From the NCBI RefSeq assembly GCF_000143985.1, contig NC_014364.1, positions 186,001-250,000 on the forward strand: a DNA stretch of 64,000 bases. The letters run 5' to 3'. The position numbers were made by a program, and so were the translations under genes. The notes under the pieces were generated by a model. That model saw only the letters and a program-made list of their open reading frames with translations. It ran no database searches and had not been told where the DNA came from. Positions 12,520-25,105 of this stretch are shown piece by piece. Numbering within the stretch: the first letter of the stretch is position 1; each line of letters opens with the position of its first letter. The DNA is from Sediminispirochaeta smaragdinae DSM 11293. Its GTDB lineage: Bacteria; Spirochaetota; Spirochaetia; DSM-16054; Sediminispirochaetaceae.

Positions 12520-13368
12520 TTACCGTGTTCTCCGTTTGACCAGCATTGTCCCCAGATAGACCGCTGCGGCGAAAAGAATGATGGTGGCACCTGCCGGTTT
12601 GTCCGCCGAGTAGCTGATGGCAAGTCCCCCTCCCGTGTAGAGAAAACTCAACAGCGACGCAAAGATCATCATCTTCCAAAGGGTGTGGGAAAAGAGTCCT
12701 GCAGTGGCAGCCGGAAGGGTCAAAAGCGCTATGACCATGACAATACCCACGAGTTGAACGGCCAGCACGATGGTAAGGCTGGTAAGCAGAAGCATCAGAT
12801 AATAGATCCTACGTACCTTTACTCCCCGCAGCGCCGCAAACTCACCGTCGAAGGTAACAGCGAATATCTCCTTATAGCGAAATAGAATCACCAGAATCAG
12901 TACAAGATCCATGACCAGGAGGAGAATGGTGTCGCTTTTTCTGATCATCAGAATATTACCGAAAAGGTAACTCATGAGATCCTGAGAGTAACCAGGGGTT
13001 GCGGCGATGAAAAAGATACCGATTGCCATACCGATGGCCCAGATTGCGGCCAGAACCGTTTCCGTTCGTTCCCTGCCCCGCCCCGTGATGCCTCCTATGA
13101 TCAGAGCGACGATGACTGCCGCCACAGCAGCGCCCTGGAGCGGTGTCGGATAGCTCCATCCGAAGCTCACCTGGAGAAAACGTGCGGCCCCCAGTCCTGC
13201 GAGAACCGAATGGGCTACGGCTCCTGCCATGGAATTGATTCTCTCCACGGTGACGTAGGTACCGATGATCCCTGCAGCCGGTGCAAGAAAGAGGCAGGCA
13301 AGGAGGGCGTTCCTCAAAAAAGGAAAGGTAACAAGGTCGTGAAAAAACTGACCGAAGAAATTCAACAC
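12520..13368 (-). CDS. znuB: Zinc/manganese-type ABC permease (ZnuB/TroC family)
   Basis: A 282-residue ABC-3 family membrane protein with about eight hydrophobic helices. FLAPAAGIIGTYVTVERINSMAGAVAHSVLAGLG near the start and ALLTLPAATAGLF near residue 222 are family signatures. It starts at GTG 13368 with AAGGAGGATTCAAC upstream and overlaps znuC by 7 nt. It should form the channel for a metal importer with ZnuA and ZnuC. Zinc is favoured over manganese because of the His-rich loop in the binding protein, but specificity is not certain. Confidence 0.9.
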   Translation of the reverse strand: MLNFFGQFFHDLVTFPFLRNALLACLFLAPAAGIIGTYVTVERINSMAGAVAHSVLAGLGAARFLQVSFGWSYPTPLQGAAVAAVIVALIIGGITGRGRERTETVLAAIWAIGMAIGIFFIAATPGYSQDLMSYLFGNILMIRKSDTILLLVMDLVLILVILFRYKEIFAVTFDGEFAALRGVKVRRIYYLMLLLTSLTIVLAVQLVGIVMVIALLTLPAATAGLFSHTLWKMMIFASLLSFLYTGGGLAISYSADKPAGATIILFAAAVYLGTMLVKRRTR

Positions 13369-14174
13369 GTTGAATCCTCCTTTGCTGAAGCGGCGGAAGC
13401 TTCATTGTGTATATCATGTAATACCAGTTTCATATCGTCACCGTAGAGTTTTCCAAGATCTTCTCCCGTCAGTTCGCAGCCAGGATGTCTGGCAAGGGTC
13501 CTGTTTATGCAAAGGATAGTATCAGCCAGATTGGAAACGACGGCGGTGTCATGGCTTACCAGGAGTATGGTTTTCTCTCCCTTTAATGAACCAAGAAGGG
13601 TATAAATTTCCTTTTCCGCCGTTCTGTCTACATTGCTGGTTGGCTCGTCGAGGATCAAAAGATCTGCCTCGCTTGCCAGGGCACGGGCAATGAGAACCCG
13701 TTGGCGCTGACCTCCGGAAAGGGCCGGAAAGGGACGTTTTTCGAGTCCTTCAAGCCCAACCGTTTTTAGTGCGGAGGCAGCAATGCGGCGATCTTCCCGG
13801 CGAAAGAAGCCGAGCCTGCTTTTTGCTCCCAGCCGTCCCATCAGAACCACATCCTCCACCGTTGCAGGGAAAAGCGGATCAAAGAGCGTATACTGGGGAA
13901 CATAGCCCACCCGTTTTCGTGCCTCCTCCGAAGGGGAATCGAACAGCCGTATCCGACCTTCATCGGGAATGAGGAGTCCGAGTATAAGTTTGAGAATGGT
14001 GGTTTTTCCGCCGCCGTTCGGCCCGATGATTGCGGCAAAGTCTCCCTGAAGGATTTCAAAGGAGACCGATTCAAGAACACGATCCTCACCGTAGCCAAAA
14101 GAGACATCCTCGAAATTTACCACAGACAGGGGCTCCGTCGACGGAGCCCCTCTTCCTTCATTATCACTCATCAA
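13362..14174 (-). CDS. znuC: Zinc-type ABC ATP-binding protein (ZnuC family)
   Basis: A 270-residue ABC ATPase with GPNGGGKTT (Walker A), LSGGQRQRVLIARAL (signature), DLLILDEPTSNVD (Walker B) and VSHDTAVVS (switch). The annotated start at 14174 overlaps the znuA stop as ATGA, giving an N-terminal extension of about 20 residues before VVNFEDVSFGYG, where homologues usually begin. That extension is encoded over a perfect 22-bp palindrome (14129-14150), so a later GTG start near the VVNF segment is an alternative. The C-terminal tail after about residue 235 is also longer than the core fold needs. Confidence 0.91.
   Translation of the reverse strand: MMSDNEGRGAPSTEPLSVVNFEDVSFGYGEDRVLESVSFEILQGDFAAIIGPNGGGKTTILKLILGLLIPDEGRIRLFDSPSEEARKRVGYVPQYTLFDPLFPATVEDVVLMGRLGAKSRLGFFRREDRRIAASALKTVGLEGLEKRPFPALSGGQRQRVLIARALASEADLLILDEPTSNVDRTAEKEIYTLLGSLKGEKTILLVSHDTAVVSNLADTILCINRTLARHPGCELTGEDLGKLYGDDMKLVLHDIHNEASAASAKEDSTC
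14129..14150 (-). promoter_or_regulatory. 22-bp perfect palindrome at the znuA-znuC junction
   Basis: Arms GGGGCTCCGTC and GACGGAGCCCC abut without spacer. In minus-strand RNA the hairpin lies 21-42 nt after the znuA stop, within the first codons of znuC. It could stabilise the znuA message, hold back znuC translation or act as a protein site. Function is inferred. Confidence 0.5.
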
Positions 14175-15127
14175 CGGAGGCCTTCCTCCAGGGCAGATGC
14201 CACGGTGTCGAGGTTGGCAATATACTCCTTTGCCAGGGCGCTGACCGGCACAACCATTCCTCCGATCTCTTTTGCCACGGTTTGGGCGCTCTGTCGGGGA
14301 AATTCGGGCTGCACAAAGATGATTTCCACATCAAGTTCCTTTGCCTCCTCGATATAAAAGACCAGCTGTTTTGGGGTTGGTTCTTTCCCCTCTATTTCCA
14401 GGGGAATCTGTATCAGGCCGTAGTCGTCGGCAAAATAGCCGAAAGCCGGATGGTAGACGAAAAAACGCTTTCCGCGTAGTGGTTCCAAATCCTGCGCAAG
14501 TCGCTCATCCAGGGTCTTTAAGTCCGATTCAAGGCCCGCAAGGTTATCCTTGTATAGTTCAGCTCCGTCGGGATCCGCTGCAGCAAGGGCGTCGGCCATG
14601 GTCTGTGCCATGATCATCATGTTACGGGGACTCATCCAGATATGAGGGTCGGGAGTTCCTGCCTCATGGTCGTGGCCGTCTTCCCCCTCACCTTCGTGAT
14701 CCCCATCATGTTCTTCATCGTGGGAATGGGCAGCATCCATGGTTCTAAGGGTGAGCCCTTTTCGAAGATCTATAATGGTAAGGTCGGGACTAAGCTCTCT
14801 TACCTTCGGTAAAAAGCCGTTCTCAAAGGGAACCCCGACCCGAAAGAGAAGCGAAGCCTGTGCGAGAGCACTCATCTGCTTTGGTGTGGGTTCGTAGGTA
14901 GCCGGGCTTTCGCCGGGAAGTACCACTACCTCTGATGTAATGCGATCGCCGCCGATTCTATCGGCCAAAAACTGGACCGGCAGAATGGAAGAATAGACGA
15001 TCGGCTTTTCGCTATCCCCGGATGTGGGAGCCGATTCACGATTGCCTCCTGCCATGAGCGGAAGGCTTGCTATAAGCATAAAAAGCAGTGCACTAACAAT
15101 ACTACATCTCTTTTTGTGACGCTTCAT
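14171..15127 (-). CDS. znuA: Zinc-binding ABC substrate-binding protein (ZnuA family)
   Basis: A 318-residue exported protein of the cluster A-I metal-binding family. The chosen ATG at 15127 follows AAGGAGGATCATC; a longer frame to 15286 lies within the upstream regulator gene. The signal peptide ends LPLMAGGNRES. Between residues about 145 and 180 there is a loop rich in His, Asp and Glu (HSHDEEHDGDHEGEGEDGHD and more), then PDPHIWMSPRNM with the metal-ligand histidine; VYHPAFGYFADDYGL and FVQPEFP complete the site. The acidic-His loop is a mark of zinc rather than manganese binding proteins. It is second in the operon behind the RHH regulator, overlapping it by 26 nt. Confidence 0.9.
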   Translation of the reverse strand: MKRHKKRCSIVSALLFMLIASLPLMAGGNRESAPTSGDSEKPIVYSSILPVQFLADRIGGDRITSEVVVLPGESPATYEPTPKQMSALAQASLLFRVGVPFENGFLPKVRELSPDLTIIDLRKGLTLRTMDAAHSHDEEHDGDHEGEGEDGHDHEAGTPDPHIWMSPRNMMIMAQTMADALAAADPDGAELYKDNLAGLESDLKTLDERLAQDLEPLRGKRFFVYHPAFGYFADDYGLIQIPLEIEGKEPTPKQLVFYIEEAKELDVEIIFVQPEFPRQSAQTVAKEIGGMVVPVSALAKEYIANLDTVASALEEGLR

Positions 15128-15392
15128 GATGATCCTCCTTGAGATCGCACGAAAGATAGTATTCGTGGCACGACTCACAACGCACCACATGGTGATGTTT
15201 TGAAAACTTTTCCCAATGATTCTTTTGATCAGGGGTGAGATAACCACTTCCCTGGCAGAGCGGACAGACATTGTCCAACTGGGCAAAGAGCGCCTTTCTT
15301 ATAAACTCGGATCTATTGGGAACCCTCCGGAGTAGTTCCGCCAGAGCCGGGTCAACTTTGAAGGTTATGGTCTCTTCCTTTTGTTGTGCCAT
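15102..15392 (-). CDS. Ribbon-helix-helix regulator with C-terminal Cys/His metal-binding cluster (putative metalloregulator)
   Basis: A 96-residue protein. Residues 1-38 (ITFKVDPALAELLRRVPNRSEFIRKAL) look like a CopG/NikR-type ribbon-helix-helix DNA-binding domain. The rest has CPLC (43-46), HHH (66-68) and CESCHEYYLSC (72-82), a probable zinc-ribbon or metal sensor site. It is the first gene of the znuACB operon and overlaps znuA, so it most likely senses zinc (or a related metal) and represses the operon through the palindrome at 15427-15443. It is not a Fur/Zur protein. The link between domain, metal and operator is inference from sequence and position. Confidence 0.78.
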   Translation of the reverse strand: MAQQKEETITFKVDPALAELLRRVPNRSEFIRKALFAQLDNVCPLCQGSGYLTPDQKNHWEKFSKHHHVVRCESCHEYYLSCDLKEDHHEASQKEM

Positions 15393-16491: not shown

Positions 16492-16911
16492 ATGAAAAAT
16501 ATGCTTGATTTACTGGAAGCCTTGATGATTTTATGTTTTGGTCTTTCCTGGCCCATTTCGATTTACCGTTCCTATGTTTCCCGGACGGCAAAAGGGAAAA
16601 GTCTCTTTTTCGAAGTATTTTTGTGGATTGGATATGTCTTTGGTATTTCCAGGAAGATTCTCCAATGGTATGGAAGTGATTCCGCATCCCTAAATTTTCT
16701 TTTCTATCTTGGGTGGTTTTTCTACATCCTGAACATTGTGGAGATTACCATAGACATGGGCCTCTATTTTCGCAACGTCAAACTCGATCGTGAACGTGAG
16801 GCTGAGCCTGGGATAGAGAGGGCCGAAGAGGTTATTGAAGAAAGCAACGAAATTATCGAACAGATGAAAGAGCTTGAGAGAGGACTTGATGGGAAGGCGA
16901 AAGGGAAATAG
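16492..16911 (+). CDS. Small multi-spanning membrane protein with charged coiled-coil tail (SemiSWEET/PQ-loop-like)
   Basis: A 139-residue protein. Residues 6-23, 41-56 and 67-90 are hydrophobic; the spacing and GLSWPISIYRSYVSRTAKGKS recall a single PQ-loop (SemiSWEET-type) triple-helix bundle, but the exact proline-glutamine motif is not clear. Residues 95-139 form a strongly charged, probably coiled-coil tail (REREAEPGIERAEEVIEE and onwards). Its function is unknown. Being divergent from a LysR regulator, it may be a regulated small transporter or a dimerising membrane protein. Confidence 0.7.
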   Translation: MKNMLDLLEALMILCFGLSWPISIYRSYVSRTAKGKSLFFEVFLWIGYVFGISRKILQWYGSDSASLNFLFYLGWFFYILNIVEITIDMGLYFRNVKLDREREAEPGIERAEEVIEESNEIIEQMKELERGLDGKAKGK

Positions 16912-16973: not shown

Positions 16974-17002
16974 TTGACAGAGTCGTAATCTAACCGCATA
17001 AT
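16974..17002 (+). promoter_or_regulatory. Promoter of the SDR-lyase-transporter operon
   Basis: TTGACA (16974-16979) is a perfect -35 box, followed after 17 bp by CATAAT (16997-17002). A 16-bp palindrome starts 2 bp further on, so repression at the start site is likely. Confidence 0.75.
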
Positions 17003-17004
17003 AA

Positions 17005-17020
17005 AACCAACTAGTTGGTT
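17005..17020. promoter_or_regulatory. Perfect 16-bp palindrome, probable TetR-type operator
   Basis: AACCAACTAGTTGGTT is a perfect palindrome overlapping the predicted transcription start. The TetR-family gene at 20475 in the same operon is the natural candidate to bind it. Confidence 0.7.
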
Positions 17021-17034
17021 GGAGAGTAATACTT

Positions 17035-18087
17035 ATGTCGTATCTGAAAAGGGAAAGGCTCCCTGAATACATTGAATCCGAAGAGGAGCTGGATGACCTC
17101 ATGAGTCTGCCGTCGAAGCAGCTTATCGACTTTCAAAAAAATTTGGAGGGCGACCTCATAATTCTGGGGGTCGGGGGCAAGATTGGTGTTCAGTTGGCAC
17201 TGGCTGCAAAAAAGGCATCTATAGCTGCAGCCGTGCCGAGGCGGATCATAGGGGTCTCACGTTTTAGTAATCCGGAGAAAAGGACACAACTTGAAGAAAA
17301 GGGGATAGAGACCATCAGTTGTGATCTTTCCGATCCTGTTGCGGTAAAGCAACTTCCCGACGCAAAAAACGTTGTGTTTATGGTCGGGAGAAAGTTCGGG
17401 ACCTGCGGCTCGGAAGAAGAAACCTGGGCAATGAACACCCTTGTTCCCGATTATGTATCAAGGCGCTATGCCAATAGTGCTATTGTCGTCTACTCAACAG
17501 GAAATGTATACGGCCTGGTTCCCGTCAATTGCGGCGGTTCTATAGAGGCCGATACCCTTCATCCCCAAGGAGAATATGCAATAAGCGCCCTCGGCCGGGA
17601 GCGGATTTTCCAGTATTACAGCAAAAAGAATGAAACACCGATCTCCATTTTGCGCCTCAACTATGCAATTGACCTTCGCTACGGTGTACTGCGGGAGATT
17701 GGAGAAAAGGTGAAAAACCAGGAGGTCATAGACCTTTCCATGGGAAACGTAAACGTAATATGGCAGGGAGACGTCATCAACCAAACCCTGCTTTCCTTTG
17801 CTCACTGCACATCACCAGCGAATATCATCAATATTACCGGGCCTGAAACAGTCTCTATCAGGTATGTTGCAGGACGTTTTAGCCGACTTTTCAATAAACC
17901 ATTAAGGCTTGAGGGGGAGGAGAGCGGCACCGCCTTACTGAACAATGCTTCGTATGCCGCTTCTCTTTTTGGTTACCCTCATGTGAGTCTTCTGACAATG
18001 GTGAAATGGATTGCCCATTGGCTGGAGATCGGGGGGACTTCCCTTGATAAACCGACCCATTTTGCCTCCCGAAACGGGATATTCTAG
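17035..18087 (+). CDS. Extended short-chain dehydrogenase/epimerase-family protein
   Basis: A 350-residue NAD(P)-binding protein. LIILGVGGKIGVQLALAA (about residues 42-59) is the Rossmann glycine motif; VVYSTGNVYGL and GEYAISALGRERI form the active-site region. The usual Tyr-x-x-x-Lys pair reads Tyr-Ala-Ile-Ser-Ala here, so the catalytic lysine is replaced, and the protein may bind nucleotide without normal dehydrogenase chemistry or use another base. It is first gene of a TetR-controlled cassette, 11 nt before a DHDPS-family lyase, suggesting sugar-acid or amino-sugar metabolism. Substrate unknown. Confidence 0.8.
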   Translation: MSYLKRERLPEYIESEEELDDLMSLPSKQLIDFQKNLEGDLIILGVGGKIGVQLALAAKKASIAAAVPRRIIGVSRFSNPEKRTQLEEKGIETISCDLSDPVAVKQLPDAKNVVFMVGRKFGTCGSEEETWAMNTLVPDYVSRRYANSAIVVYSTGNVYGLVPVNCGGSIEADTLHPQGEYAISALGRERIFQYYSKKNETPISILRLNYAIDLRYGVLREIGEKVKNQEVIDLSMGNVNVIWQGDVINQTLLSFAHCTSPANIINITGPETVSIRYVAGRFSRLFNKPLRLEGEESGTALLNNASYAASLFGYPHVSLLTMVKWIAHWLEIGGTSLDKPTHFASRNGIF

Positions 18088-18098
18088 GAGCATACCTT

Positions 18099-19157
18099 AT
18101 GAATATGAAAGAAATTCGTCGTCTGCTCTTCCAGGGAATGGCAATTCCGGCAATTCCCCTTGCCTTGCATGAAGATGGTACATTTGATCCCTTGCATCAA
18201 CGCGCCCTGCTCCGCTACTACATCGATTCCGGGGTAGGAGGAATTGCGGCTGCAGTCCATACCACGCAGTTTGAAATTCGAGAACGGCCTGACTTTTTTA
18301 GGGACTTCCTCACCTTCGTTTCCGGGGAAATCTCTTCTTACGCTGCAAAAAAAGGACGGCAAATACTAAAAATCGGTGGTGTTTGTGGGAATACGAAGGC
18401 TGCTGTTTCGGAGGCCGGACTTCTCAGAGAAAAAGGCTTCGATCTTGGACTTCTTAGTCTTGCGACATTCAAGGGAAAGAGCCCCGACAGCATCCTTGAA
18501 CATTGCAGAAAGGTTGCAAAAGAGATCCCTTTGTTCGGATTTTATCTGCAGCCTGCGGTTGGCGGCATTCCCCTGTCTCGCGATTTCTGGAAAGACTTTG
18601 CGTCGATTCCCAATGTGCTTGGCATTAAGGTGGCGCCCTTCAACCGATATAAAACCCTCGATGTCGTTCAGGGGGTCTCGGAGGCAGGGCGCGGCCATGA
18701 GGTCGCTTTGTACACGGGAAACGATGATAGCATTATTTTCGATCTGCTTTCATCCTACCCGTGTTCAGGGGAAGAGGGGAGAGCGCTACGCTTTTCCGGT
18801 GGTCTGTTGGGACACTGGTGTGTCTGGACCAGCAAGGCGGTGGAACTACTTGAGGAGATCAAGAAGCTTAGGGCAAAAGGATCGGATATCCCTTTTGAGC
18901 TGCTGGAACGGGCTCAAAAGATTACCGATGCAAATGCCGCGATTTTCGATGCACAGAACGATTTCGCCGGGGTAATCCCAGGGGTCCACGAGATCCTTCG
19001 CCGGCAGGGACTTCTTGAATCGAGACGTTGTCTTGATCCTTCTTTGGAACTATCACCATCCCAGATGGGAGAGATCGAAAGGGTGATTGGTGCATATCCT
19101 GAACTTCAGGATGATGCGTTTATATCGTTACATATTGACCAATGGCTAACAAACTAA
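18099..19157 (+). CDS. Dihydrodipicolinate synthase/N-acetylneuraminate lyase family protein
   Basis: A 352-residue class I aldolase-type barrel, somewhat longer than the 290-310 usual for DapA. Lys177 in VLGIKVAPFNRY is the expected Schiff-base lysine and Tyr149 in FGFYLQPAVGG the matching tyrosine. Close relatives act on 2-keto acids derived from sugars, sialic acid or hydroxyproline, and it is not in a lysine operon. Its place between an SDR and an unusual Nramp-like transporter points to catabolism of an imported organic acid or amide, with the ArgE-like enzyme at the end of the cassette. Confidence 0.82.
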   Translation: MNMKEIRRLLFQGMAIPAIPLALHEDGTFDPLHQRALLRYYIDSGVGGIAAAVHTTQFEIRERPDFFRDFLTFVSGEISSYAAKKGRQILKIGGVCGNTKAAVSEAGLLREKGFDLGLLSLATFKGKSPDSILEHCRKVAKEIPLFGFYLQPAVGGIPLSRDFWKDFASIPNVLGIKVAPFNRYKTLDVVQGVSEAGRGHEVALYTGNDDSIIFDLLSSYPCSGEEGRALRFSGGLLGHWCVWTSKAVELLEEIKKLRAKGSDIPFELLERAQKITDANAAIFDAQNDFAGVIPGVHEILRRQGLLESRRCLDPSLELSPSQMGEIERVIGAYPELQDDAFISLHIDQWLTN

Positions 19158-19169
19158 AAGGGGGAATCT

Positions 19170-20381
19170 ATGGATAAAAAGGGAAAAGGGATATCACAAT
19201 TGGCCTTCCTGCTTGGTCCGGGGGTGATAACAGCTGCCACGGTCCTTGGCCCGGGAAGCATCACGGTAAGCAGCAAATCCGGCGCGCTGATGGAATATAG
19301 CGTGCTTTGGGCGGTCGTCATCGCAGGAATTTTCATGGCGACATTTACCAGAATGGCTGCAAGGATCGGTTGTCTGAATGATGATTCACTCTTAAACATC
19401 GTCAGGACAAAACAGCATCCTGTTCTGGCAGTCGTGGTCGGTTTGAGTGTGTTTCTTATTGCGGGGGGCTTCCAGACAGGGAACAATATCGGTGTCGGCC
19501 TTGCAATGGATGCAATGTTCGGTGGTGGTATCATGCTGTGGGCACCGGTTTTTACCATTATTGCTCTTCTCTTTATTTGGATATCGCGGGATTTTTACAA
19601 GCTGCTCGAAAAGGTGATGATGACCTTGGTTGTGATTATGATTGTCGCCTTCATAGCGAACGTCTTTATGGCTGGTCCCAGTGTTGGAAAGATAGCCTTA
19701 GGGCTTGTTCCTTCTCAGCCTAAAATATGGGGCCTCGTCATTGCCATCTCCGCAACAAGTTTTAGCATTGCAGCTGCCGCATATCAGGCCTACCTGGTAC
19801 AGGGAAAGGGATGGAGTGCTGCGTTTCTAAAAAAAGCACAGCGAGATGCGACCATAGGAATCGTCATTTTGTGTGGTCTGGCGGCCCTTATCATGATTAC
19901 ATCGGCGGCGGTTCTTGCACCGCGGGGTATCGGGGTCAAGAGCGCCGTTGACATGGCAATCCAGCTTGAGCCTCTGTTGGGGCCTTTGGCAAAATGGCTT
20001 TTCCTCTTTGGCCTTTTGGCAGCCTCCTTTTCTTCCTTTATCTCGAATGCCGTTCTCGGCGGTATGTTTCTCTCCGACGGCTTCGGCCTTGGTAAAAGCC
20101 TCAACGACATCTCCGTGAAGGTATTTACAACGGTACTTCTGCTTTTCAGCACCACCCTTGCCGTGATACTGAAGACGAACCCCATAGAGGTGCTCGTGGT
20201 TGCCCAGGCCTCGACAATTCTGGGAGGGCCGTTGGTTGCCATCGTGCTCCTGCTTCTTGGAAACAACAAAGATGTGTTGCAGGAGCATACCAACAAGCCT
20301 GTTACCAATGTCATCGCCGTGTTGGCGATCCTCTGGATAAGTTATCTCTCCTATAACCAATTGATGGCCTTCATTGGTTGA
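19170..20381 (+). CDS. Nramp-fold transporter without the metal-binding motif
   Basis: A 403-residue membrane protein of about 11 helices with clear overall similarity to Nramp/MntH (GPGVITAATVLGPGSITVSSKSGA in helix 1). In true metal Nramps helix 1 carries DPGN and helix 6 carries MPH; here the matching positions read GPGS (Gly27, Ser30) and SFSIAAAAY, so the Asp, Asn, Met and His metal ligands are all missing. It is therefore unlikely to carry Mn, Fe or Mg ions by the known route. Linked genes for an SDR, a DHDPS-like lyase and a deacylase suggest an organic solute. Stop at 20381 is followed by a hairpin. Confidence 0.83.
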   Translation: MDKKGKGISQLAFLLGPGVITAATVLGPGSITVSSKSGALMEYSVLWAVVIAGIFMATFTRMAARIGCLNDDSLLNIVRTKQHPVLAVVVGLSVFLIAGGFQTGNNIGVGLAMDAMFGGGIMLWAPVFTIIALLFIWISRDFYKLLEKVMMTLVVIMIVAFIANVFMAGPSVGKIALGLVPSQPKIWGLVIAISATSFSIAAAAYQAYLVQGKGWSAAFLKKAQRDATIGIVILCGLAALIMITSAAVLAPRGIGVKSAVDMAIQLEPLLGPLAKWLFLFGLLAASFSSFISNAVLGGMFLSDGFGLGKSLNDISVKVFTTVLLLFSTTLAVILKTNPIEVLVVAQASTILGGPLVAIVLLLLGNNKDVLQEHTNKPVTNVIAVLAILWISYLSYNQLMAFIG

Positions 20382-20408
20382 GTTAGAATGCTGTCGGGAT
20401 TAGCATCT

Positions 20409-20441
20409 AAAGAGCAATACGTACCGGTATTGCTCTTTCTT
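20409..20441 (+). terminator. Strong hairpin after the transporter gene
   Basis: AAAGAGCAATAC and GTATTGCTCTTT pair perfectly across a 6-nt loop (GTACCG), followed by TTTCTT. Flanking TAGCAT/ATGCTA can extend the stem. It lies between the transporter and the TetR gene and is likely a terminator or attenuator. Confidence 0.75.
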
Positions 20442-20474
20442 CCAATGCTAAAATTTGAATCCGATGGGATTGTC

Positions 20475-21074
20475 ATGCAAAAACGGAGCAGGGACACAAA
20501 GGAACGTATTTTCAAGGCCGCGGTAGAGGAATTTGCCAAGTCGGGGTTTCACGGTGCACGTGTAGATAATATTGCGAAAAAGGCTAAGAGCAATAAGGAA
20601 CGCATCTATGCCTATTTCGGCAGCAAAGAAGACCTTTTCATCGAGGTATGGAAGCGTACCTATATGCTTATTATCGAGGTTGATGAACAGTTTATGGACC
20701 TAACCGATGAGGATATCCCATCCCTCACCGGAATCATATTGAAACGGTATGTGCATTTCCATCAGGAACATTCGGAATTCTGGAAGATCTTCGTGTGGGA
20801 AAATATGCTTGATGGAAAACATACGGAAAAGGTAAAGGGATTCAAAGAAAGGCCTTATAAACATTTGCGTAGACTCTATGCAAGGGGGCAGGAGCTGGGA
20901 TTCTTCTCCCGTGAGGTCTCTTTCGAGACCTATATGTTCGTCATCACTGCCGTTTCGTTTTTCTATGCTTCGAATAGGTGCACCATGAGCCAGTCCCTCT
21001 CGATAAACCTCACCAACAATGATGTTGTTGAGGGGATGATTGAAGAAGCAACAAAGATGCTTAATGGAAAATGA
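20475..21074 (+). CDS. TetR-family transcriptional regulator
   Basis: A 199-residue TetR-type repressor. The ATG at 20475 (MQKRSRDTKERIFKAAVEEFAKSGFHGARV) is chosen because the longer frame from 20388 would span the hairpin. The helix-turn-helix covers residues about 25-50 with IAKKAKSNKERIYAYFGSKEDLF. The C-terminal ligand domain is ordinary in length. It likely controls its own cassette through the palindrome at 17005-17020; the hairpin between it and the transporter should keep its expression lower than the upstream genes. It overlaps nothing and is 3 nt from the ArgE-like gene. Confidence 0.87.
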   Translation: MQKRSRDTKERIFKAAVEEFAKSGFHGARVDNIAKKAKSNKERIYAYFGSKEDLFIEVWKRTYMLIIEVDEQFMDLTDEDIPSLTGIILKRYVHFHQEHSEFWKIFVWENMLDGKHTEKVKGFKERPYKHLRRLYARGQELGFFSREVSFETYMFVITAVSFFYASNRCTMSQSLSINLTNNDVVEGMIEEATKMLNGK

Positions 21075-21077
21075 TAT

Positions 21078-22277
21078 ATGATCATGGAACAACAATTGGA
21101 AAAGATCTCCCAGGAGGCGGTGCGCATTCTGTCGGATCTTGTTTCCTTCAGAAGTGTAAGCGGTTCGGATAATGAGGATATCATCACATACATTGCCGAT
21201 TACCTTATCTCATACGGATTATCCCCCAAGCGGATCTCCGCCGGTCGTTCGCACAGTAATAATCTTTTCGTAACCATAGGGGAAAGCCGGGATGGTGGAG
21301 TGCTGCTTTCCGGGCACACCGATATTGTCCCCGCATCTGGCGCAGGCTGGGATTCGGATCCCTTTGTACTGAGCCCCCGCCAGGTGTGTGGGGAAGAGAT
21401 GCTGTATGGACGGGGTGCCTGCGATATGAAGGGCTTTCTTGCCGCTATTCTCGCGTTGGTTCCACGCTGGATCGAAAAACGATTGGGCTGCAATAAGGAG
21501 CCGATTCATCTTGCCTTTACCTATGATGAGGAGATCGGATGCATTGGCGTCGACGATCTTATCGCCGAATTAGGTTCGTGCCTCCCCCGTCCAGATGCGG
21601 TGCTTGTTGGAGAGCCTACCTTGCTGCGGCCCGCAGACGGACATAAAAGCGCATCACGCTATATCACCACGGTTAAAGGTGTATCCACCCACTCCAGTCG
21701 TCCTGCCTCCGGGGTAAACGCCATCTATGGGGCAAATCATCTTATTGCCGAACTTCAAAGATTCGCCGGGGAGATACAAAGCCGGAGTTCCCGGGATCCG
21801 GAAGCCCGGCGTTTCGATCCCCCCTATTCAACCATTTCCCTTGGGACCATTCATGGGGGAACGGCAATCAACGTCGTGGCAGAGCAGTGTGAATTGGGGT
21901 GGGAGGCACGGGCCCTTCCCTGGGAGGATCCTCAGCAATACCTGCGACACATTGAAGACTTTTCCCGCCACCTGTCAGAGACACTCCCTGACGGAAAGAA
22001 ATTGGTGTTTACCCATCGGCTCGACTCCTTTCTTCCCGGGCTTAGCCCGAAGGCCTCTAAGGCATATGGCTATTATCAAGCCATGATGGTCGCAGGTAAC
22101 AAAATCCCCCAACCTACTACAACCGTCGCGTTTGGTACCGAGGCGGGGAAGTATGACCAGGCCGGGATTCCCGCCTTGATCTGGGGACCGGGGTCGATTG
22201 ACAGGGCCCACGGGAAGAATGAATACATCGAGAAACAACAACTTGTTGACTGCTGTGCTCTGCTGTCGAAGCTCTGA
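21078..22277 (+). CDS. M20-family metallopeptidase, acetylornithine deacetylase-like (ArgE)
   Basis: A 399-residue dinuclear zinc hydrolase of the ArgE/DapE group. Ligand-bearing motifs are LLSGHTDIVPA, YGRGACDMKGF and TYDEEIGC with GEPT following; VKGVSTHSSRPASGVNAI is the dimerisation/substrate region. It removes an acyl group from an N-acyl amino acid. Because it sits in a TetR/Nramp/DHDPS cassette and not among arginine genes, the substrate may be an N-acyl compound brought in by the transporter. ATG 21078 or 21084 may be used. Confidence 0.85.
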   Translation: MIMEQQLEKISQEAVRILSDLVSFRSVSGSDNEDIITYIADYLISYGLSPKRISAGRSHSNNLFVTIGESRDGGVLLSGHTDIVPASGAGWDSDPFVLSPRQVCGEEMLYGRGACDMKGFLAAILALVPRWIEKRLGCNKEPIHLAFTYDEEIGCIGVDDLIAELGSCLPRPDAVLVGEPTLLRPADGHKSASRYITTVKGVSTHSSRPASGVNAIYGANHLIAELQRFAGEIQSRSSRDPEARRFDPPYSTISLGTIHGGTAINVVAEQCELGWEARALPWEDPQQYLRHIEDFSRHLSETLPDGKKLVFTHRLDSFLPGLSPKASKAYGYYQAMMVAGNKIPQPTTTVAFGTEAGKYDQAGIPALIWGPGSIDRAHGKNEYIEKQQLVDCCALLSKL

Positions 22278-22341: not shown

Positions 22342-23445
22342 ATGGAAAAGAAAAGCAGAATCATCTTGTTGATTGGGTTGGGACTTTTTTTGTGTCTTTG
22401 CTCACCTCTTTTTGCCGATCCCGGACTGGAGGCCCTGTACAAGGAACATTTCGATACCCTTGTTACTTCCGTCTACCCTCTTTTTGATGTGAGATTCTTT
22501 CCTTCTGGTGCGTTGGAGGATTCTTTTTCGCCTTTAGAGGAGCAACGGGCTCAAGAACTTTTTTCGGTTCTGGACGACTACCTCGATAAAGACGAGGATC
22601 CCCATCCCTATCTGATAGACGCCCGCGATTACGGTACGAAAGCCTTTGCTGAAGGGGCTTTTTCAATTGGTACCTATGCTGCCGGGGATGATTTCCCATC
22701 GCTTTTTCCCGTCATTGAGCCGAAATTCACCCCTGATGGCAATGATGCCATGATTCGCCTTGCCCTCTCGAAGCGGGCATTCGATGAGGAAGGCGTAGCG
22801 ACCGCTGTTGCCGTCGCACAGTTTGCAAATCTTTTGAAGCAATTCTACGACGCCAACCACAATAGCATCGTCCAGTTTATTAACGGAAGAAACCTTTCCG
22901 AGGAGTTTCTTTACATGCGTGACGCCTTGATGGTGCAGGATTCTGTCATCGAATTTTACCTTGATGCTTCGGATAAAACCCTGGAGGGCGCCGAATTTTT
23001 TCTCGCCGATTCCTTTTTTCGGGATCAGATGGACAGCGTCATGATGCTCGGCTACGGTATTGATCAGCGGATGATGAAATTCCTTGATACCCGTTACCAG
23101 GTCCTGCTTTCCCAACAGGAAAACTTTGAATCGTTTATCGACGGTTTTGACCAGATGATACAGGGGGCCGAGGACAATGCTCCGGACCCCGAACAAGGTA
23201 GTGAGTTTGATCTTTTGATCTACCGAAACAGGGTGGCAACCATGTGGATCTTTCAGGGGTGGTATCTTGCCCTGCTTCCCGGTCGTTTCCCCGTCTATGA
23301 CGCCCCGGAACCAATCAAGATGAAGCTGTCTGCGCTTTTGCGCCGCTGGGAGGGGATGGAGGATGATATCCTTGCTTCCGAAGCGATGTTGACCCAGAAG
23401 CGTACCGAGTTTGTCGCCAGGATCATGGAGCCTGCCGATGGTTGA
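22342..23445 (+). CDS. Exported protein of unknown function
   Basis: A 367-residue protein with an N-terminal signal (MEKKSRIILLIGLGLFLCLCSPLFA, cleaved near residue 25). The mature part is rich in acidic and aromatic residues and mostly alpha-helical in appearance, with no catalytic motif I recognise. A signal-anchored or periplasmic location is expected. It overlaps the ankyrin gene by 8 nt, so the two are probably co-translated and may work together. I cannot assign a role. Confidence 0.72.
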   Translation: MEKKSRIILLIGLGLFLCLCSPLFADPGLEALYKEHFDTLVTSVYPLFDVRFFPSGALEDSFSPLEEQRAQELFSVLDDYLDKDEDPHPYLIDARDYGTKAFAEGAFSIGTYAAGDDFPSLFPVIEPKFTPDGNDAMIRLALSKRAFDEEGVATAVAVAQFANLLKQFYDANHNSIVQFINGRNLSEEFLYMRDALMVQDSVIEFYLDASDKTLEGAEFFLADSFFRDQMDSVMMLGYGIDQRMMKFLDTRYQVLLSQQENFESFIDGFDQMIQGAEDNAPDPEQGSEFDLLIYRNRVATMWIFQGWYLALLPGRFPVYDAPEPIKMKLSALLRRWEGMEDDILASEAMLTQKRTEFVARIMEPADG

Positions 23446-25105
23446 GCTGCAAAGAGGGGCTGCCGTGGCGCTCCTTCTTCTTTGCTTTTCCGGCTGGGGC
23501 TTTTCGCTTCCCGAGGATCATCGTCCCTCTCTCTTGTCGATGGAGGAACTCTCCCAAGCAGCATTACAGGTGCATGATCGCTATGAGATTCCCTACCCTC
23601 CCCTTGCCGACATAACCCTTCTGTACGATGGGGCCCGTGTCCGCGCCTGGATTGAGGCCTGTAATGAAGGAAAGGCCCAGCCCATGCCGCGTCGCTGGTT
23701 TACCGGGACGGGAACCGGATTCTCCTCAATGATCTATATGTCGTGTGTCTCCTTTCTCACTGGGAAGGGGTGGGCACTTGCCGAATCCGCCTTTGAAAAA
23801 AGGTTGGGCAATGATTCTGTTAACGAAAGAAATAGGGCGATCCTAAACGCCTTTCTTGCGATTGACAACCAGGAAGAAATGAAAGAGGCGGCGCCTCGCT
23901 TTTTTCCCTTTTCTATGTTTCTGAAACGCCGTGAATTGGGTGACGGTGTTTCGATTATGCTGCCCGATGTTGCCTGGAAGCTCCTGCCTTCAGGATCGAC
24001 CCCCTTGGCTCGGACCTTGGTATATGGGGATGAGGGATTTCTTCGGGGGCTAGGATATGATCGAAAACGGGTCGGTCCGGGCTATGATATTCGCCGGGAT
24101 CCGATTGCCATGGCAAGCTGTATCAAGGTCCGTATGGAGAAGGCGATCAATGGCAACGGTACCTATCTCCCTCTGCGACCGGGAATGCCGTTTGCCATTG
24201 CAAAAAAGGTCGCCGTGGGAGATTTCTTTGCCGATACCATCTGGTTTCAGCCCTTTATCTCTGCTCCCGATGGTGTAGAGACCGGTGCAGAAGGGCGGCT
24301 TTATTTCAAACAGGGGAATCAGCTCTTCGTTGTATCGCTTTTTTCCATGGTTGATTCCTCTCATCCCGCAGCAGATGGGGACCTCCTGTTGGGCGAAGCG
24401 GCTTCGCTCCTTTCCACGCTACAATTTCCAGCGGAGGATACTCTTTTGGACTCCCATCGTTTGGCAGCTCTTTCTGATTTGCTCCATGCTGGAGATGTAT
24501 CGCTATTACGACCGGAACTTCAAACTATCGTAAGAGAGACCGGTAGCATTCACTTCCCCGACTCCCATGGCGAACCCTTTTGGCATAAGATTTTCCTCGA
24601 TTTCGATCGGGATGATCCGCGGCGGGAAGCGCTATTGAAGCTTTTTATTTCTCTTGGGATAAATCCCGATGCCTCTGGTCCTTCGGGAAAACGGGCTGTC
24701 GACTATGTTGTTGAGCAGGGGGATGCTGGACTGCTGGAGGATGTACTGCTTGCACGGGCTCATGGGGATTACCTGACCAAGGATGGTTCCTCTCCATTAA
24801 TTGAGGCCGCTTCAGGTGGTGATGTTTGGTGTGTTCTTACCCTGCTTCGGGCCGGAGTGAATGTGGATTTGCCGGATATACGGGGAAGGAGTGCCCTTCA
24901 TTGGGCGGCACGGCATGATTACCTTGCTGTTGCGAAATTGCTGTTGGAAAAGGGGGCTTCTCCCGAAAGCCGGGATATTGCAGGCAAGAGTCCTCTCGAC
25001 CTCTCTCCTGCCTTTCAGGATATGAGGCGTTCGCCCTTGTTTGTTATGGTCCAGAAGTTTTGCGGCAGTCCGACATGGGCAAAGGTACAGCCCGAGGAGC
25101 AGTGA
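23438..25105 (+). CDS. Exported ankyrin-repeat protein
   Basis: A 555-residue protein with start ATG 23438 inside the end of the previous gene. A signal peptide covers residues 1-24 (ALLLLCFSGWGF). A long unassigned region follows. From about residue 448, two to three ankyrin repeats appear (DGSSPLIEAASGGDVWCVLTLLR, GRSALHWAARHDYLAVAKLLLEKGA, GKSPLDL), which usually bind proteins. It likely works with its upstream exported neighbour outside the cytoplasm. Its last 91 nt are also covered on the opposite strand by the end of the FeoC-like gene. Confidence 0.78.
   Translation: MVELQRGAAVALLLLCFSGWGFSLPEDHRPSLLSMEELSQAALQVHDRYEIPYPPLADITLLYDGARVRAWIEACNEGKAQPMPRRWFTGTGTGFSSMIYMSCVSFLTGKGWALAESAFEKRLGNDSVNERNRAILNAFLAIDNQEEMKEAAPRFFPFSMFLKRRELGDGVSIMLPDVAWKLLPSGSTPLARTLVYGDEGFLRGLGYDRKRVGPGYDIRRDPIAMASCIKVRMEKAINGNGTYLPLRPGMPFAIAKKVAVGDFFADTIWFQPFISAPDGVETGAEGRLYFKQGNQLFVVSLFSMVDSSHPAADGDLLLGEAASLLSTLQFPAEDTLLDSHRLAALSDLLHAGDVSLLRPELQTIVRETGSIHFPDSHGEPFWHKIFLDFDRDDPRREALLKLFISLGINPDASGPSGKRAVDYVVEQGDAGLLEDVLLARAHGDYLTKDGSSPLIEAASGGDVWCVLTLLRAGVNVDLPDIRGRSALHWAARHDYLAVAKLLLEKGASPESRDIAGKSPLDLSPAFQDMRRSPLFVMVQKFCGSPTWAKVQPEEQ

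Follow-up and report, generated by a model that had tools for sequence, protein, structure and literature searches.

A transporter gene related to the Nramp metal transporters was found within a catabolic gene cassette of Sediminispirochaeta smaragdinae, and its product probably imports an organic, sugar-acid-like carboxylate for breakdown. This is the best-supported reading of the results. The window, that is, the whole stretch of DNA that was analysed, is 64 kb long and covers bases 186001-250000 of the single-contig genome of 4,653,970 bp. The cassette comprises five genes on the + strand with intergenic gaps of 3-13 bp. The features of the cassette and of its control region are listed below with their positions in the window.

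16974-17002, + strand: sigma-70-like promoter, TTGACA-17-CATAAT, from a consensus scan (11 of 12 positions; a consensus match only)
17005-17020, no strand: perfect 16-bp palindrome AACCAACTAGTTGGTT, candidate operator of the cassette TetR
17035-18087, + strand: atypical extended SDR, epimerase-like, 350 aa (PF01370, 34.7 bits)
18099-19157, + strand: divergent lyase of the DapA/DHDPS superfamily, 352 aa (PF00701, 29.4 bits; Schiff-base Lys177)
19170-20381, + strand: Nramp-related transporter, 403 aa (PF01566, predicted fold and clade placement)
20388-21074, + strand: TetR-family regulator, 228 aa (PF00440 and PF17938 above cut-off)
21078-22277, + strand: ArgE-like M20 deacylase, 399 aa (PF01546, PF07687; TIGR01892)

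All of the five genes are present in the sister species, the second of the genus, and the transporter is 98% identical to its counterpart there. The genes and DNA upstream of the SDR gene diverge between the two species. A hydrophobic 139-aa ORF just upstream of the cassette (16492-16911, + strand) did not match any Pfam or NCBIfam model and is absent from that place in the sister species. This ORF and a LysR gene were rejected as parts of the cassette because the genes upstream of the SDR gene differ in the sister species. An apparent metal ABC operon composed of a permease, an ATPase, and a binding protein with a His-rich stretch (12520-15286, - strand) lies on the opposite strand about 2 kb upstream of the cassette and looks unrelated. 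Downstream of the cassette (22342-25105, + strand), a 367-aa protein of no Pfam family precedes one of 564 aa that has ankyrin-like repeats, and ORFs of matching length also come after the cassette in the sister species. As for the control region, both promoter boxes (TTGACA and CATAAT/TATAAT) are conserved in the sister species. The palindrome is identical there, while the DNA further upstream diverges. It is the sole site with one mismatch or fewer in the 4.65-Mb genome and the sole site with three mismatches or fewer in the window. The palindrome, which lies downstream of the -10 box and ahead of the first start codon, is a good candidate for the TetR operator, and TetR may control its own operon through it. 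The substrate or an intermediate would then relieve the control.

The transporter matched the Pfam Nramp family PF01566 with 203.3 bits against a gathering cut-off of 29.8. Its score against the MntH model was 107, which is far under the cut-off of 430. With 54.8 against a cut-off of 50, it also cleared NF037982, a broad NCBIfam model named "Nramp family divalent metal transporter". This match explains the database label as a metal transporter, since NF037982 tests no ligand. The protein has 11 strongly hydrophobic segments, and its AlphaFold2 model (mean pLDDT 91.8, pTM 0.91) has the LeuT-type Nramp fold as a predicted structure. The Foldseek TM-scores of the model were 0.87 for DraNramp (6d91), 0.83 for EleNRMT, and 0.80 for a YcsG model. 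The match with the APC amino-acid carriers (GkApcT, AdiC, BasC, and LAT1), which share the LeuT fold, was weaker at 0.6-0.7.

The metal site was compared with that of DraNramp, in which the Mn2+ ligands are D56, N59, M230, the backbone carbonyls of A53 and A227, and Q378 via water (PMC10185341). The original prediction had read GPGS in TM1 and SFSIAA in TM6 of the transporter, and the sequence reads exactly so: TM1 is VLGPGSIT (residues 25-32, GPGS codons 19248-19259) and TM6 is ATSFSIAAA (residues 195-203, SFSIAA codons 19758-19775). Neither DPGN nor MPH of the canonical Nramps is found. D56 of DraNramp is replaced by G27 and N59 by S30. M230 corresponds to F198 or S199 and H232 to I200 or A201, where the paired options reflect two aligners that disagree by one residue in TM6. 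In TM3, N105 (codon 19482-19484) stands in place of E134. The TM10 glutamine is retained, with Q346 at the position of Q378. The proton network made by Asp/Glu of TM3 and Arg of TM9 is missing as well; Q102 and N105 are found there, and one basic residue, K317, is left. The alignments indicate that the direct side-chain metal ligands are all absent, and that backbone carbonyls and the water-linked Gln could remain. The claim that all metal ligands had been lost is therefore right for the direct side chains and too broad for Q346 and the backbone carbonyls.

The residues that stand in these positions are strongly conserved. Among 86 homologues from about 10 phyla, G27, P28, N105, F198, and Q346 were found in 86/86 and S199 in 85/86, and position 30 is Asn in 53 and Ser in 28. 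Because the substituted residues are near-invariant across these relatives, the site is, as judged from the alignment, specialised and not decayed. The replacement of the direct ligand side chains by conserved residues argues for organic-acid import. The clade signature, GPG[SNA] in TM1, N105, FS[IVL] in TM6, and catabolic neighbours, is carried by the transporter, and the clade is called the FSI clade here.

The phylogeny was determined with IQ-TREE as an unrooted tree of 74 proteins, accompanied by a broader quick tree. The FSI clade (38 sequences) was monophyletic with a support of 100/99 and separate from the DPGN Nramps (20 sequences, 100/100). It thus falls outside the canonical metal-transport clade. 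Two smaller groups were a GPGF group (4 sequences, 100/100) and a GPGT group (3 sequences, 100/98). The sequences linked to PxpA or D-glutamate cyclase formed a group of their own outside the FSI clade. The monophyly of the FSI clade, apart from both the DPGN Nramps and the PxpA/D-glutamate-cyclase-linked group, also favours organic-acid import. In published trees, Nramp-related proteins lacking DPGN/MPH likewise sit outside the canonical clade (PMC9606685); they form a paraphyletic set from which the DPGN/MPH site arose (PMC12873925). Because of this placement, the word "lost" in the original prediction probably has the wrong direction, and the metal site may never have been there.

The gene neighbourhoods were compared across relatives. 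Relatives with 30-53% identity were located at 80 loci in a scan of 84,980 genomes, and five plasmid relatives were added. Of the 86 clade loci, 60 have a DapA-family gene within 4 kb; the corresponding counts are 0/18 for canonical MntH loci and 0/23 for other Nramp-related loci. Any of the listed catabolic families was found within the same distance in 77/86, 0/18, and 2/23 loci, respectively. The Fisher values of 8e-16 and 1e-21 are inflated because the choice of families was based on the neighbours of the clade itself and 48/86 loci belong to Actinomycetota. Enzymes of the DapA, SDR, enolase-superfamily, and Gfo/Idh/MocA types recur as partners, and three settings were distinguished. At first, there is the SDR-DapA setting of Spirochaetota, Bacteroidota, Hydrogenedentota, and Ornithinimicrobium. 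Second, another DapA with a divergent LacI gene is found in Actinomycetota and Pseudomonadota. Third, Gfo/Idh/MocA oxidoreductases with sugar-isomerase-like and FAH-like proteins are found in haloarchaea, Planctomycetota, and Lentisphaerota. Random neighbours were rejected because the catabolic families and the SDR-DapA pair recur near the clade carrier.

In a cleaner comparison, the window-type DapA occurs in 7/20 foreign genomes bearing a clade carrier, as a single copy in each and always with an adjoining SDR gene. The pair adjoins the carrier in four of these seven genomes (G061, G064, G065, and G068), and such adjacency in genomes of several Mb is far beyond chance. A fifth lineage (locus L083) has the gene order SDR-DapA-carrier, as in the window. 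The conserved catabolic neighbours and the adjoining SDR-DapA pair support the import of an organic acid. Together with the clade placement, they bear out the earlier view of a non-canonical Nramp relative in an organic-acid type cassette. Acid-sugar breakdown usually pairs an enolase-superfamily dehydratase with a DapA-type lyase. Enolase-superfamily genes come after the SDR-DapA pair in two Bacteroidota (L035 and L038). They are also found close to the 53%-identical carrier of L034, together with a gene of the DHDPS family and a serine-dehydratase-like enzyme made of two parts. These enolase-superfamily genes are another argument for organic-acid import. Literature searches on SDR-DapA-enolase systems and on Nramp proteins associated with sugar acids returned nothing about this clade.

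Where the SDR-DapA pair lacks a clade carrier, another carrier of organic solutes is usually close by. A sugar ABC transporter is found near the pair in Paenibacillus, Streptomyces, and Glaciihabitans (L028, L188, and L192), a TctAB tricarboxylate carrier in another spirochaete (L171) and, by annotation, in Nitratireductor (L189), a sugar-type MFS transporter in Rhodococcus and Prescottella (L190 and L191), and an NMT1-type ABC transporter in Tistrella and Sulfitobacter (L029 and L031). In operons that contain the clade carrier, no other protein has six or more hydrophobic segments, and in 4/5 comparable foreign loci the carrier is the sole polytopic protein of the examined stretch. That other organic-solute carriers stand in for it points to an organic substrate.

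The partner enzymes were analysed individually. The SDR keeps the Rossmann glycines and Tyr181, and the Lys of the YxxxK motif is replaced by Ala185, so that the classical Tyr-x-x-x-Lys of extended SDRs is not present. In an alignment of 12 homologues from bacteria and archaea, the position four residues after the Tyr is Cys in the 11 relatives compared, and R188, E189, and R190 are invariant. The missing catalytic Lys had been noticed correctly, and it is a trait of the family. The AlphaFold2 model of the SDR is nearest to TerB and UDP-sugar epimerases. The search against solved-structure sequences gave no match, and the fold search returned only generic epimerases and TerB, which give no hint of the substrate. 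The DapA-like protein had been described as a DHDPS-like lyase with an intact Lys177, and this was confirmed: among 12 homologues Lys177, the Schiff-base residue of the DHDPS superfamily, is invariant and Tyr149 near-invariant. Its closest solved structures are DHDPS, and it did not match any NCBIfam model, including TIGR00674, the equivalog for DapA proper. The linked TetR and ArgE-like genes were also found as described. The ArgE-like protein passed the acetylornithine deacetylase equivalog TIGR01892 (321.5 against 297.7), an assignment of substrate by score only. Up to 18 M20 matches, this one included, were counted in the genome. Among the loci examined, the ArgE and TetR partners are genus-specific.

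These results are consistent with the following mechanism. The transporter would act as a secondary carrier with the Nramp/LeuT fold, and its central site, which is not made for a metal ion any more, would bind an organic carboxylate. The substrate would most likely be a sugar acid or a similar hydroxy or keto acid, and the carrier would import it for the co-transcribed enzymes. The SDR may perform an oxidoreduction or an epimerisation, and the DapA-type lyase may perform a Schiff-base cleavage or a dehydration via Lys177. In this genus, the ArgE-like deacylase may additionally remove an acyl group. The carboxylate of the substrate may contact the unwound GPG segment of TM1, by analogy with the APC amino-acid carriers. 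In GkApcT and AdiC, backbone amides of the unwound TM1 at the substrate site bind the carboxylate (PMC5803215), and a GPG segment without the Asp charge could bind an organic acid likewise. The motifs differ from those of the clade, however, and a profile comparison of the clade with the APC amino-acid permeases of the same genome found no detectable similarity (probability 7%, TM1 motifs unaligned). Therefore, the analogy is one of fold. Several points run counter to organic-acid import. The backbone carbonyls and the TM10 Gln are still in place, and Asn30 is retained in most clade members. Mn import has been reported for MumT and YcsG/MntG, two ligand-poor Nramp relatives of catabolic operons. 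In addition, the partner enzymes vary among lineages, and thus no single substrate fits all of them.

In a narrower form of this explanation, the substrate is an N-acyl amino acid or amino-sugar acid, on which ArgE acts first after uptake. In the operon, the ArgE gene starts 3 bp past the TetR gene, and the sister species has it too. Near the SDR-DapA pair, an M20 peptidase is found in Prescottella (L191) and a PIG-L deacetylase in Rhabdobacter (L035). GNAT acetyltransferases lie within the SDR-DapA unit in Tistrella (L029:5020-5844), Sulfitobacter (L031:5103-5963), and Aquisphaera (L032:3819-4646), which hints at an amino-bearing intermediate. However, among the loci examined, the ArgE-like gene accompanies the transporter only within the genus; no ArgE relative was detected near the carrier beyond it at the tested cut-off, and ArgE was rejected as a general partner of the carrier. 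With so many M20 matches in the genome and its score as an acetylornithine deacetylase, the cassette enzyme could be a passenger. The N-acyl version is thus weaker than the organic-acid reading and appears unlikely. Of the predicted uptake and breakdown of an N-acyl or keto compound, the organic-acid-type cassette holds up, while the N-acyl link depends on the genus-limited ArgE.

It is quite improbable that the carrier still imports a divalent metal, Mn2+ or Mg2+, via backbone carbonyls, Q346, and water in order to feed a metalloenzyme of the operon. Two ligand-poor Nramp relatives encoded in catabolic operons have Mn phenotypes: Mn import for urea carboxylase was proposed for MumT on physiological evidence (PMC5050338), and YcsG/MntG, the B. 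subtilis relative of PxpT, was reported as a Mn importer on evidence of the same kind (PMC10448178). Also, a reduced set of ligands is enough for Mg2+ transport by EleNRMT, and metals are required by M20 and enolase-superfamily enzymes. On the other hand, the clade lacks the side-chain carboxylate, Met, His, and TM3 Glu (here the Asn too), and Phe198 in TM6 is invariant. The core enzymes, DapA with its Lys Schiff base and SDR, require no metal, and organic-solute carriers serve the same pair in other genomes. A canonical MntH is encoded separately elsewhere in the same genome, which further supports organic-acid import by the clade carrier.

Export of a pathway intermediate or a toxic keto acid, instead of import of the substrate, is a very unlikely role. 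TetR regulators often control efflux, and the direction of transport is not readable from sequence. However, the carrier is the only polytopic protein of the cassette, as in most comparable foreign loci, it replaces uptake systems with binding proteins (TctAB and sugar ABC), and Nramp-fold carriers known so far mainly import. That the protein is degenerate and has no transport role is hardly credible: the known functional residues are absent, but their substitutes are strongly conserved in the 86 homologues, the near-identity with the sister species and an intact predicted 11-helix fold speak against it, and a pseudogene was rejected for the conservation across the clade.

The organic-acid reading has a precedent in PxpT, which is required for growth of C. 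glutamicum on 5-oxoproline, where metal transport is not excluded (PMC13274462). Non-metal Nramp relatives had been called little studied. PxpT is one clear exception, and its relative YcsG is the reported Mn importer mentioned above. Like the clade carrier, the proteins of the PxpT/YcsG (MntG) group belong to PF01566, have Gly for the TM1 Asp and Asn in TM3, and are encoded in catabolic operons, and for PxpT the need for an organic substrate is experimental. The PxpT/YcsG group differs by its own clade (100/100), GPGF in TM1, VGG in TM6, and the linked PxpA or D-glutamate cyclase, whereas the clade carrier has GPGS and FSI with a linked SDR-DapA pair. The neighbours in the window are SDR, DapA, TetR, and ArgE and not pxpABC. 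The canonical Nramp/SLC11/MntH proteins (DraNramp and ScaDMT) share the fold, the GP pair before TM1, and the TM10 Gln with the clade carrier, but the latter has no DPGN, MPH, or TM3 Glu, falls outside their clade, and is operonic. The NRMT Mg2+ transporters share the fold and an altered site. They keep the TM1 Asp (DxxG) and the TM3 Glu, and the clade carrier has neither. Membership of NRMT was rejected because the TM1 Asp of the DxxG - TxxA/T site is Gly and EleNRMT falls outside the FSI clade, albeit on a long branch. Cellier's "orphan outgroup" and the uncharacterised groups of Ray et al. 2026, PF01566 proteins without the metal and proton residues, probably include the FSI clade, and the accessible parts of these two sources assign no substrate or gene context to them.

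The FSI clade adds to an already known kind, the Nramp-related carriers in catabolic operons. As a tentative proposal, the clade as a whole, in bacteria and haloarchaea, might consist of organic-acid importers. Together with the groups linked to 5-oxoproline enzymes or hydantoinase, this might mean that within PF01566 the transport of organic anions came first and the DPGN/MPH branch gained its metal site later. In genome databases, the proteins of the clade are named as divalent metal transporters, and probable metal transport is also what a recent sequence model assumes for every Nramp-related sequence (PMC13060092). If the clade does move organic acids, the present annotation is mistaken for many proteins of about ten phyla, and part of the "Nramp metal transporter" family is something else. 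How metal selectivity arose in a carrier of the LeuT fold is a long-standing question, for which the clade would then be a natural outgroup with a testable substrate, and it would help to settle the conflict over YcsG/PxpT (Mn2+ or 5-oxoproline).

The other Nramp-related groups gave several further observations. The GPGF group was recognised as the YcsG/PxpT kind by its neighbour genes, since one member adjoins PxpA (PF03746) and another adjoins D-glutamate cyclase (PF07286); the sequences of YcsG and PxpT themselves are not in the tree. A search of solved-structure sequences with a PxpA-linked relative as the query, aimed at reaching YcsG, gave no match. The GPGF loci with 5-oxoproline-type neighbours are L162 (3014-3778 and 3905-5146, - strand) and L158 (3080-3886 and 3899-5119, - strand). 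In the GPGT group, genes for hydantoinase/oxoprolinase A and B adjoin two members, at L027:5974-10829 and L143:29-3799, the latter in the quick tree only. The Nramp-related groups next to 5-oxoproline or hydantoin enzymes include haloarchaea. Finally, Nramp-related proteins of Promicromonospora and Arthrobacter (L144 and L145) have DAGD or DIGD in TM1 and MTP in TM6, keep the TM3 Glu, and group near EleNRMT on long branches.
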